Shown here: positions 8,601 to 11,742 of the stretch, piece after piece
Numbering within the stretch: position 1 is the first letter of the stretch
How the letters are laid out: the number at the start of each line of letters is the position of its first letter
Assembly (NCBI GenBank): GCA_008012315.1
Contig: SSEL01000006.1
Span: 124,001 to 188,000 of the forward strand
Source of the DNA: Rhodospirillaceae bacterium
Lineage (GTDB): Bacteria > Pseudomonadota > Alphaproteobacteria > Dongiales > Dongiaceae
Direction of reading: 5' to 3'
Length of the DNA stretch: 64,000 nucleotides
Notes under the pieces: model-generated
Databases searched by the model: none
What the model was told of the DNA's origin: nothing
What the model saw: the letters and a program-made list of their open reading frames with translations, nothing else
Program-made: the position numbers and the translations under genes

Positions 8601-9521
8601 ATGCAACCGGTCCATCGGGCCCTGCTTGCCGTCTTAACCCTGGTCTGGTCGCTGACAGCCAGCATGCCCGGGGCTTTTGCGGCCGATGGCCGGCCCCTTG
8701 ATATCGTCGCGGCGGAAAATTTCTATGGCGACGTCGCCGAGCAATTGGGGGGCCCGGACGTCAAGGTCACCAGCATCCTCAGCAACCCCGACCAGGACCC
8801 CCATCTGTTCGAAGCCAGCCCCACCGCCGCCCGGGCTTTGGCCGGGGCGGCGCTGGTCATCTATAACGGTGCCGATTACGACCCTTGGGTCCAGCGATTG
8901 CTGGCAGCGTCCGACACCCCTTCGGCCCGCGTGATTGTCGTGGCGGACCTGATGCAAACCCAAAGCGGTGACAATCCGCACCTCTGGTATGATCCGGATA
9001 CCATGTCGGCCGTGGCGAAAGCCCTGAGCAGCGCCTTGATCACGGCCGACCCGGCACACGCAGCCGACTACCAAAAGCGCCTGCAGGATTTCCTCGCCTC
9101 GCTTCAGCCCCTGACGGATAAGATCCGACACCTGCATGACCGCTATGCCGGCGTCCCCGTCACGGCCACTGAACCGGTTTTTGCCTATATGGCCCAGGCG
9201 ATTGGCCTGGAGGACCGGAACCAGCGCTTTCAGCGGTCGATCATGAACGATACCGAGCCAAGTGCGAAGGACATCGCCGCGTTCCAGGACGATCTTAAAA
9301 ACCGGCGCGTCAAAGCGCTCATTTATAACAGCCAGACCAGCGACGACCTGACCGGCCGGCTGCTCGATCTAGCCAAGACATCCGGCATTCCGGTTGTCGG
9401 CGTCACTGAAACCGAGCCGGCCGATAAGACCTATCAGGAATGGATGCTCGATCAACTGACGGCATTGGAAAAGGCGCTGTCATCGGCATCCGGCGATGCC
9501 GCCACGACAACAACGCAGTAA
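8601..9521 (+). CDS. znuA: Zinc ABC transporter substrate-binding protein
   Basis: 306 residues of the cluster A-I (ZnuA/TroA) solute-binding family. A signal peptide ends near residue 28 (GAFA/ADG). Metal-ligand segments are visible: DPHLFEAS, NPHLWYDPDTM, and a late NSQTSDDLTG/VGVTETEP region. The acidic-histidine loop found in many zinc-specific ZnuA proteins is absent here; instead a His-rich tail is on the ATPase. It captures the metal in the periplasm for ZnuBC. It is the first gene of a tightly spaced znuACB operon behind a Zur-like box. A manganese substrate is less likely given that box. Confidence 0.85.
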   Translation: MQPVHRALLAVLTLVWSLTASMPGAFAADGRPLDIVAAENFYGDVAEQLGGPDVKVTSILSNPDQDPHLFEASPTAARALAGAALVIYNGADYDPWVQRLLAASDTPSARVIVVADLMQTQSGDNPHLWYDPDTMSAVAKALSSALITADPAHAADYQKRLQDFLASLQPLTDKIRHLHDRYAGVPVTATEPVFAYMAQAIGLEDRNQRFQRSIMNDTEPSAKDIAAFQDDLKNRRVKALIYNSQTSDDLTGRLLDLAKTSGIPVVGVTETEPADKTYQEWMLDQLTALEKALSSASGDAATTTTQ

Positions 9522-9522
9522 T

Positions 9523-10425
9523 ATGACGCGCATGGCCTCAACCTCCATTCCGGCAATCGAACTTGAACAGGTGACGATCGCTCTCGGCGGCCGCTTCATC
9601 CTCAGCGATGTGAGTCTGGCCGTCGGCAATGGCGAGTTCATTGGTGTCCTTGGCCCCAATGGCGCCGGTAAGACAACGCTGATGCGCGCCCTCCTTGGCC
9701 TCATCAAACCGTCCTCGGGACATATCACGGTCCTCGGCGAGCAAGCCATCCGCGGCAATCCGGCCATCGGTTATATGCCGCAACTCCGCAGCCTGGCAGC
9801 GCATCTTACGTTGCGCGGCTGGGATTTCGTCGCCAGCGGCATCGATGGCCATCGCTGGGGGCTGCCGGTCCTCAATGCCGCACGACGCCAGGCCGTTGCG
9901 GAAGCAATCGACCTGGTCGGGGCCACCCATCTCGCGCAACGCCCGCTCGGCGACCTTTCGGGCGGCGAACGGCAGCGGCTGATGCTCGCCCAGGCCCTGC
10001 TCGGCCGGCCCAGGCTGTTGCTCCTCGACGAACCGTTGATCAGCCTCGATCCGCATCATCAGCGGGTGGTGGTGGAACTGGTGCGCGAGGTCCAGCAGCG
10101 GCTTGGAATCGCCGTTCTGTTCAGCGCCCATGAGCTGAACCCGCTTCTGGCGGCCATGGACCGGGTTCTCTATCTCGGCAATGGCCACGCCGCTCTTGGC
10201 ACCGTCGACCAGGTGATCAATGGGCCGGTCTTGTCGCGCCTCTATGGCTCCAGCATCGATGTCGTGCGCATCAACCAGCGCATCTTCGTCATGTCCGGCG
10301 GGCACGATGTGGAGCGCGACGCCCACATGCACGAGAACGGCCACGGCCACGACCACGATCTCGGCCACGGTCATGATCACGCGCATGGCCAAGATCACAA
10401 CCCTGATGGGCGTCGTCATGCTTGA
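9523..10425 (+). CDS. znuC: Zinc ABC transporter ATPase with histidine-rich C-terminal tail
   Basis: About 300 residues of ABC ATPase: Walker A GPNGAGKTT, Q-loop region MPQL, signature LSGGERQR, Walker B LLLLDEP and the switch region FSAHEL. It powers metal import through ZnuB. After the ATPase domain about 40 residues carry twelve histidines in GH/DH repeats. Such a tail may bind zinc at the cytoplasmic face, but that is inference. I start at the ATG one base after the znuA stop; an ATG at 9496 inside znuA is possible. Confidence 0.9.
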   Translation: MTRMASTSIPAIELEQVTIALGGRFILSDVSLAVGNGEFIGVLGPNGAGKTTLMRALLGLIKPSSGHITVLGEQAIRGNPAIGYMPQLRSLAAHLTLRGWDFVASGIDGHRWGLPVLNAARRQAVAEAIDLVGATHLAQRPLGDLSGGERQRLMLAQALLGRPRLLLLDEPLISLDPHHQRVVVELVREVQQRLGIAVLFSAHELNPLLAAMDRVLYLGNGHAALGTVDQVINGPVLSRLYGSSIDVVRINQRIFVMSGGHDVERDAHMHENGHGHDHDLGHGHDHAHGQDHNPDGRRHA

Positions 10426-11221
10426 CTATGATTTCATGCAGCATGCTTTCGCCGCGGCCGGCATCGTCGCCATCGTCGCCGGCGTGGTCGGCTTCTTCCT
10501 GGTCTTGCGCGGCCAGACCTTTGCCGGCCATGCCTTGTCGCATGTCGGCTTTGCCGGGGCGACGGGGGCGATCCTGATCGGCGGGTCGCCACTTTCCGGC
10601 CTGATCGCCTTCACGCTGCTGGCCGGGATCGGCATGGGTGCCTTAGGCGACAAGTTGAGCGGCCGCGATGTCGCGATCGGCGTGATTCTGTCCCTGTCGC
10701 TTGGCCTGGGCTTGCTGTTCCTGCATTTTTTCACGGCCTATGCAACCCAGGCGACCGCGTTGCTCTTCGGCAATGTCTTCGGCGTCAGCAATGGCACCCT
10801 GCTGGTCCTGTTCGGAATCGGCGCGGCCGCATTGATCGCCTTGGGCGTAATCGCCAGGCCCTTGCTGTTTGCCAGCCTTCAACCTGAGCTGGCCGAGGCA
10901 AAGGGCGTGTCGCTGCGCCTGGTCTCGGTCCTGTTTCTCGCCATCGTTGCCCTCGCCGTTTCCGCCTGCGCCCAGGTCGTCGGCGTGCTGCTGGTCTTCG
11001 CGCTGATGGTAGGGCCGGCGGCAACCGCCCAGCGGCTGACCAGCCGGCTCGGCCTGGGTGTGGCTTTGGCGGCGGGATTGGCGTTGGTTGAAGCCTGGCT
11101 TGGCCTTGTCCTCGCTTATTACACCGATTGGCCCGCGAGCTTCTGGATCACCGCCCTCAGCGCGCTCGCCTATTTCGCCAGCCTGACCGGCAATCGGCGT
11201 GCCGCCATTCCCGCCCATTGA
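10418..11221 (+). CDS. znuB: Zinc ABC transporter membrane subunit
   Basis: 267 residues with about eight hydrophobic helices and the ABC-3 family pattern, including LRGQTFAGHALSHVGFAGATGA, typical of the ZnuB/TroC permease that docks the ATPase. The ATG at 10418 overlaps the znuC stop (ATGCTTGA), implying translational coupling. Longer in-frame starts inside znuC are unlikely because that stretch would encode the antisense-like frame of the His-rich tail. It forms the inner-membrane channel for the metal. Confidence 0.92.
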   Translation: MLDYDFMQHAFAAAGIVAIVAGVVGFFLVLRGQTFAGHALSHVGFAGATGAILIGGSPLSGLIAFTLLAGIGMGALGDKLSGRDVAIGVILSLSLGLGLLFLHFFTAYATQATALLFGNVFGVSNGTLLVLFGIGAAALIALGVIARPLLFASLQPELAEAKGVSLRLVSVLFLAIVALAVSACAQVVGVLLVFALMVGPAATAQRLTSRLGLGVALAAGLALVEAWLGLVLAYYTDWPASFWITALSALAYFASLTGNRRAAIPAH

Positions 11222-11237: not shown

Positions 11238-11561
11238 TCATTCCCTGAATCTACCGAGGGCCCAATCCCGCGCCTGATCGACCGCCTCGCCTTCGATGGC
11301 TTTCTCCAGGTAAACCGTCAGCCCTTCGCCCCGCCCGTTGCTTCCTGGGGCAGGCATGGCTTTGCCGGGTATGATTTTGTCGGGCACGACCCGGTAGACA
11401 TGCGTCCACAGGCCGAAGCGGCGATGAACGACGACATAGATCAGGCTTCGTTCGGCCGTACCGCGGCGATTGCGATGCAGACAGCTGGAAATAAAGGTTG
11501 CGTCGTCTTCCGGGCCGATCACCAGGGATAGGTCGGGAACGAAATCGATACTATCAGGCAT
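11238..11561 (-). CDS. Hypothetical protein behind a structured, SD-sequestering leader
   Basis: 107 residues; I do not recognise the family. It begins MPDSIDFVPDLSLVIG, has a Cys-His segment (SSCLHRNRRGT), then predicted beta strands (SLIYVVVHRRFGLWTHVYRVV), and ends in a helix (AVDQARDWALGRFRE). No signal peptide or membrane segment is evident, so it is probably cytosolic. A strong AGGAGG site lies eight bases before the ATG, but it is locked in a perfect hairpin in the leader (see the regulatory entry). It converges on znuB with 16 bases between them. Confidence 0.7.
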   Translation of the reverse strand: MPDSIDFVPDLSLVIGPEDDATFISSCLHRNRRGTAERSLIYVVVHRRFGLWTHVYRVVPDKIIPGKAMPAPGSNGRGEGLTVYLEKAIEGEAVDQARDWALGRFRE

Positions 11562-11706
11562 TAAAAATCCCTCCTAAAACACAGGAGGGCTGACGCAGCG
11601 GCTTGGTCCCGTTTGGTTGCCGGTCCGGCCACATCCCCCGATCTCGGGGCACCACCTTGCGCGGGTACGCAGGTTGGCGTTGGGCGTCAGCCCAACTCTT
11701 GATGCG
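11562..11706 (-). promoter_or_regulatory. Candidate riboswitch or other structured cis-regulatory leader
   Basis: Transcribed on the minus strand just before the gene starting at 11561. Plus-strand 11587-11596 and 11684-11693 are perfect 10-base complements (GGGCTGACGC/GCGTCAGCCC), closing a domain of 87 bases as stem P1. Inside lie hairpins at 11636-11649 and 11654-11674. A perfect 7-bp hairpin (11569-11575 with 11583-11589) buries the AGGAGG ribosome site. Its anti-SD strand shares CCC with P1. The P1 5' strand can instead form a perfect local 7-bp hairpin (11679-11696). So P1 excludes both alternative hairpins, the layout of a translational switch. The ligand and class are unknown. Confidence 0.6.
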
Positions 11707-11713
11707 AGAGCGA

Positions 11714-11742
11714 TACATACGCCCGGCCATCATAGCCGTCAA
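11714..11742 (-). promoter_or_regulatory. Candidate sigma-70 promoter of the structured leader
   Basis: On the minus strand, TTGACG (11742-11737) is separated by exactly 17 bases from TATGTA (11719-11714). The -35 matches the consensus at five of six positions; the -10 is weaker. Transcription would begin near 11706, about 13 bases before the first strand of stem P1, which fits the boundary of the structured leader. Inferred from sequence only. Confidence 0.45.

Follow-up and report, generated by a model that had tools for sequence, protein, structure and literature searches.

The leader in front of a small gene on the minus strand of the window (the whole 64,000-nt stretch of DNA analysed here) is a genuine riboswitch and belongs to a class already known, SAM-I/IV, and we infer with high confidence that it binds SAM and shuts off the small gene when SAM is plentiful. 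In a covariance scan, RF01725 (SAM-I/IV) was the sole Rfam match above cut-off in the whole window. It was placed at 11603-11710 on the minus strand, to which all leader coordinates below refer, with 62.5 bits against a gathering score of 41.1 and an E value of 6e-8 for the whole window. The match was full-length (model positions 1-99), all core positions were matched, the alignment contained zero non-standard pairs, and the SAM-binding core letters agreed with the consensus. The original prediction had matched the aptamer to no known class, and the possibility of a new class is ruled out by this match. Near the leader, matches to the glutamine-II and eL15 leader models were far below cut-off and were set aside, and the model of SAM-II (RF00521) gave no match within the 64-kb window.

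The Rfam alignment divided the aptamer into P1 (GCAUC/GAUGU; 5' strand GCATC at 11701-11705, 3' strand GATGT at 11631-11635), a plain P2 hairpin at 11679-11696 (GTTGGGC, 11696-11690, with GCCCAAC, 11685-11679), P3 with CCAACC/AAGGUGG, the P4 hairpin (CCCCGAGATCGGGG, 11636-11649) situated after P3 and before the P1 3' strand, a 3' hairpin, and the PK-2 3' strand CGGG (11608-11611), whose partner is the loop-3 strand CCCG (11662-11665). The 7-bp local hairpin reported previously is the P2 of this aptamer, and folding also returned P4. The class was introduced with a P2 that is free of the internal loop seen in SAM-I and SAM-IV (Weinberg et al. 2010, PMC2864571), and P2 in this leader is likewise a plain hairpin without an internal loop. 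SAM-I/IV has further been contrasted with SAM-IV by the presence of P4 and PK-2 and the absence of PK-1 (PMC6890682); both P4 (11649-11636) and PK-2 (CCCG/CGGG) were found in the leader, and PK-1 was judged absent by one feature, the short P2 loop of 4-6 nt. Across an alignment of 24 alphaproteobacterial leaders, P1, P2 and PK-2 jointly showed 95% standard pairs and 22 two-sided cells, compared with 32-46% pairing in slid versions. P1 was 100% paired with GC/AU/GU exchanges at its outer pair, and PK-2 was 91.6% paired with two-sided changes at two of its four pairs.

A promoter-like pair had been proposed upstream, and it was read as such on the minus strand: TTGACG (11742-11737), a 17-nt spacer and TATGTA (11719-11714), together spanning 11714-11742. 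Its position is conserved in relatives. A pair defined as TTG-N16-18, with A as the second base of the second hexamer and its end no more than 8 nt from where the aptamer starts, was recovered in 17 of 21 relatives, compared with a shuffled mean of 1.0 and a maximum of 4. The conserved position and spacing place the transcription start just before P1, and transcription would be expected to begin at about 11708-11706.

We then considered the perfect 10-bp long-range complement between GGGCTGACGC (11693-11684) and GCGTCAGCCC (11596-11587), which was confirmed on the minus strand. The original prediction took this helix for the P1 of the aptamer, a place that belongs instead to GCATC (11705-11701) with GATGT (11635-11631); the 10-bp helix is an anti-aptamer helix. 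Its 5' strand (11684-11693) draws on the P2 5' strand and loop as well as the opening bases of the P2 3' strand, and its 3' strand (11587-11596) is located just past the 3' end of the aptamer, which makes the helix incompatible with the aptamer. Among the 24 leaders of mixed genes, 91.6% of cells were paired, with two-sided changes at five of ten pairs; the covariation score was reached by none of 500 shuffles, and slid controls gave 34-52%. Restricting the alignment to 22 leaders of the 107-residue protein family, whose sequences are related, gave 90.4% pairing and two-sided changes at four of ten pairs (15 such cells), with two of five measures not above shuffles (pairs with a two-sided change, 170/500; pair types, 482/500). 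Slid controls over both leader alignments were 32-52% paired. It was noted that the helix is poorly kept in the family leaders L017, L022, L055 and L065. In an alignment-free comparison, which is inflated by relatedness and base composition, the duplex between P2 and its own downstream strand had a mean of -18.3 kcal/mol compared with -15.9 kcal/mol when permuted, and none of 20,000 permutations was as strong. No report of a P2-invading switch helix in SAM-I/IV was found in the open-access literature.

The best-conserved portion of the long helix is its loop core, UGACG/CGUCA, which is sterically separable from the Shine-Dalgarno hairpin. These features would suit a pseudoknot between the P2 loop (CUGACG) and CGUCAG, leaving P2 unopened and the Shine-Dalgarno hairpin free to coexist with it, without strand exchange. 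We regard this arrangement as rather unlikely: the GGGC part also covaries with the downstream strand, showing GC, AU and GU at the outer three pairs, and a P2 loop of just 4-6 nt argues against it as well. The preferred reading is a helix that opens P2.

The Shine-Dalgarno sequence AGGAGGG (11569-11575) is perfectly complementary to the anti-Shine-Dalgarno strand CCCTCCT (11583-11589), as had been predicted, and folding also paired the two. The bases CCC (11589-11587) are common to this hairpin and the long helix, so that the two states overlap at the Shine-Dalgarno sequence by three bases only. The gap to the ATG at 11561, previously counted as eight bases, is 7. The two states were nearly equal in energy (-70.7 and -70.1 kcal/mol in Vienna, with PK-2 and SAM outside the model), and the full-length Vienna minimum did not contain the aptamer P1. 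In folds of successive prefixes, the aptamer appeared at 80-110 nt, the anti-aptamer helix at 120-130 nt, and P2 with the Shine-Dalgarno hairpin from 140 nt. Such a progression is that of an RNA choosing its fold during transcription, and SAM could tip this choice.

According to the proposed mechanism, the first ~105 nt would fold to P1-P2-P3-P4 with PK-2 and bind SAM. With SAM bound, P2 would stay closed, so the downstream strand GCGUCAGCCCUCCU could not invade it; its CCCUCCU half would then pair with AGGAGGG, hiding the ribosome site and silencing the gene. When SAM is absent, GCGUCAGCCC would pair with GGGCUGACGC, breaking P2, taking up three anti-Shine-Dalgarno bases and exposing the ribosome site, and the protein would be made at low SAM. 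The expected sign is OFF because P2 is required in the fold that binds the ligand, and its presence frees the anti-Shine-Dalgarno strand. This sign agrees with other alphaproteobacterial RF01725 copies, located before metA (homoserine O-succinyltransferase) and metF genes, as is expected of SAM repression.

A new aptamer class, with the 10-bp helix as its P1 and ligand binding turning the gene on, had been the earlier reading, and the long helix and its competition with Shine-Dalgarno sequestration are indeed real. We consider that reading exceedingly improbable given the RF01725 assignment with all core positions matched, the location of the helix 3' strand outside the aptamer, and the destruction of P2 when the helix forms. 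An ON switch is rejected, as the helix put forward as the aptamer P1 abolishes the aptamer P2; the two states were assigned the wrong way round. What stands of the original prediction is a riboswitch with two mutually exclusive states, sequestration of the ribosome site, a promoter close upstream and a small gene of no recognised kind. The checks that it proposed, namely Rfam models, orthologue leaders and covariation, support the existence of the switch and turned up none of the results named beforehand as speaking against it; the novelty of the class was lost.

Control in this leader is probably translational. The same SAM-I/IV OFF switch might instead act mainly by termination, with the hairpin at 11589-11569 and the U-run behind it serving as an intrinsic terminator in place of, or besides, the Shine-Dalgarno blocker. 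With the ATTTTT behind it, the 8-bp hairpin receives a terminator-like score, a U-run lies between hairpin and AUG in many relatives, and the last 9 nt ahead of the start codon are 43% T. However, the U-run is frequent without being universal, missing from the metA leaders and from some relatives in which the hairpin is retained (L045); the stem is short, the Shine-Dalgarno sequence itself sits inside the 3' arm of the hairpin, and terminator-like matches were equally common in shuffles (mean 0.7). Termination as the main route is thus a possibility that we hold only tentatively. The terminator-like hairpin and the common U-run suggest that termination may contribute to a mainly translational switch, in which the SAM-bound Shine-Dalgarno hairpin and its following AUUUUU may also stop transcription. 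In the metA leaders L026, L031, L032 and L033, it was noted that the anti-aptamer strand GCGTC appears paired with GACGC beside the start codon, not with a strong Shine-Dalgarno sequence, as another version of this competition.

The gene behind the switch is a 107-codon open reading frame (11238-11561, minus strand), and its 107-residue product belongs to an undescribed family of 80-120 residues. Relatives are 24-47% identical and share the invariant residues D19, H46, R47, T53, H54, Y56 and L85. Consistent with the earlier statement that the protein has no recognised family, no match was found in Pfam, NCBIfam or PHROGs, and none of 24 family members matched Pfam or NCBIfam at E 0.1. AlphaFold models with pLDDT values of 77 and 80 showed four strands and a C-terminal helix. 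A fold search of these models against the PDB gave no match with E <0.3, their VIA-align Z values of at most 6.3 fall in the range that the tool calls uninformative, and a sequence search against the PDB gave one weak match (E 0.043). Flanking open reading frames read in 15 relatives revealed no common neighbour gene, and no relative of the protein was found in the phages searched. Within the window, the gene is convergent with a zinc-uptake-type operon on the plus strand (8601-11221), encoding a ZnuA-like binding protein, an ATPase and an ABC-3 permease.

We found that the association of the protein family with the riboswitch extends across many Alphaproteobacteria. Protein similarity led to 23 loci, of which 20 had RF01725 directly upstream; this count leaves out two repeats, L044 and L062. 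Searching by protein alone identified homologues in Azospirillum sp. TSO22-1 and Caenispirillum bisanense, both with RF01725 directly upstream. A protein search of plasmids added copies in Mesorhizobium mediterraneum and Microvirga sp. VF16, both with RF01725 upstream, and a copy without it in Skermanella rosea. The family genes on the first two plasmids (L042:1492-1854 and L043:1492-1851, respectively) are missing from the plasmid gene tables, which are incomplete, the one for Microvirga having just one feature. Among 385 genomes of the class, a profile search identified six with the family, and RF01725 was present in all six, a count that is partly circular as five of these were first found via the RNA. 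In one order the same approach recovered the family from 15 of 82 genomes and in a second order from 5 of 248, and RF01725 was directly upstream in 18 of the 20 further loci scanned with Rfam. Among 17 genomes of the window's own taxonomic family, both the protein and RF01725 occurred only in the genome of the window.

The loci without the riboswitch (L041, L059 and L060) each lie directly behind a Pls/PosA-type peptide-synthetase-like gene, as annotated for L041 (Skermanella rosea) and as judged from upstream sequence for L059 and L060. In the genomes of L059 and L060, another family copy does carry the riboswitch, and these three loci appear to represent a second type of family member. It was also noted that at L055 and L056 the family member under SAM-I/IV control is closely followed, on the same strand, by a glycine riboswitch (RF00504), and that the family gene behind the riboswitch at L020:1650-1960 is seemingly split over two frames, through a frameshift or a sequencing error. 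The near-constant position of the family directly behind a SAM-I/IV switch points to an unrecognised part in methionine/SAM metabolism. For the 107-residue protein, the riboswitch suggests a role in methionine/SAM homeostasis, most likely as an accessory function needed at low SAM.

SAM-II is the usual SAM riboswitch of Alphaproteobacteria. The genome of the window has two SAM-II (RF00521) copies outside the window, before metA and a metZ/metY-type gene, as named from reading the translations. The core methionine genes thus have SAM control of their own, which makes the 107-residue gene a further, separate SAM-controlled unit. Other targets of RF01725 were also encountered. In AT-rich genomes of ~1.4 Mb, RF01725 was located ~100 nt upstream of genes for OmpW-family outer-membrane proteins (L011, L015, L019 and L021), which one would not expect a SAM switch to control. 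At L006, L007, L008, L009, L010, L014 and L018, SAM-I/IV switches precede other small proteins without a significant Pfam match and with no obvious kinship to the 107-residue family.

Because the target is not a known methionine gene, it could be asked whether the SAM-I/IV scaffold here has an altered ligand, in the manner of the spermidine variants of SAM-I; SAM-rejecting variants do exist in the SAM-I class (PMC10853860). We consider this very unlikely, as the consensus core (CAUCAAGAG, CCAACC, AAGGUGG and GAUG) is unchanged from RF01725 and equals that of the copies preceding metA. We give roughly even odds to a broader proposal with two parts: that the small proteins are an unrecognised, SAM-repressed component of alphaproteobacterial methionine/SAM homeostasis, produced solely under SAM scarcity, and that alphaproteobacterial SAM-I/IV switches share a platform that invades P2 rather than P1. 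As the RNA class is known, the novelty lies in the target, an unnamed and often unannotated protein family behind a SAM sensor in many alphaproteobacterial genera. A conserved riboswitch before an orphan gene is among the better clues to the role of that gene and makes the role testable, and the competing P2 helix supplies SAM-I/IV switches with a concrete expression platform.

Compared with known SAM riboswitches, the leader is unrelated in fold to SAM-II (SAM_alpha, RF00521) and shares its clan and ligand-binding core with SAM-I (S-box) and SAM-IV. SAM-I differs from this leader in having a kink-turn in P2 and no PK-2 (PMC6890682), whereas SAM-IV differs from SAM-I/IV in that PK-1 is present and P4 absent (PMC6890682). 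With the SAM-I/IV class (RF01725; PMC2864571, PMC6890682), the leader agrees in aptamer sequence, in all helices, in a P2 without an internal loop, in P4 and in PK-2; it stands apart in preceding an undescribed small-protein family and in the P2-invading switch helix documented here.
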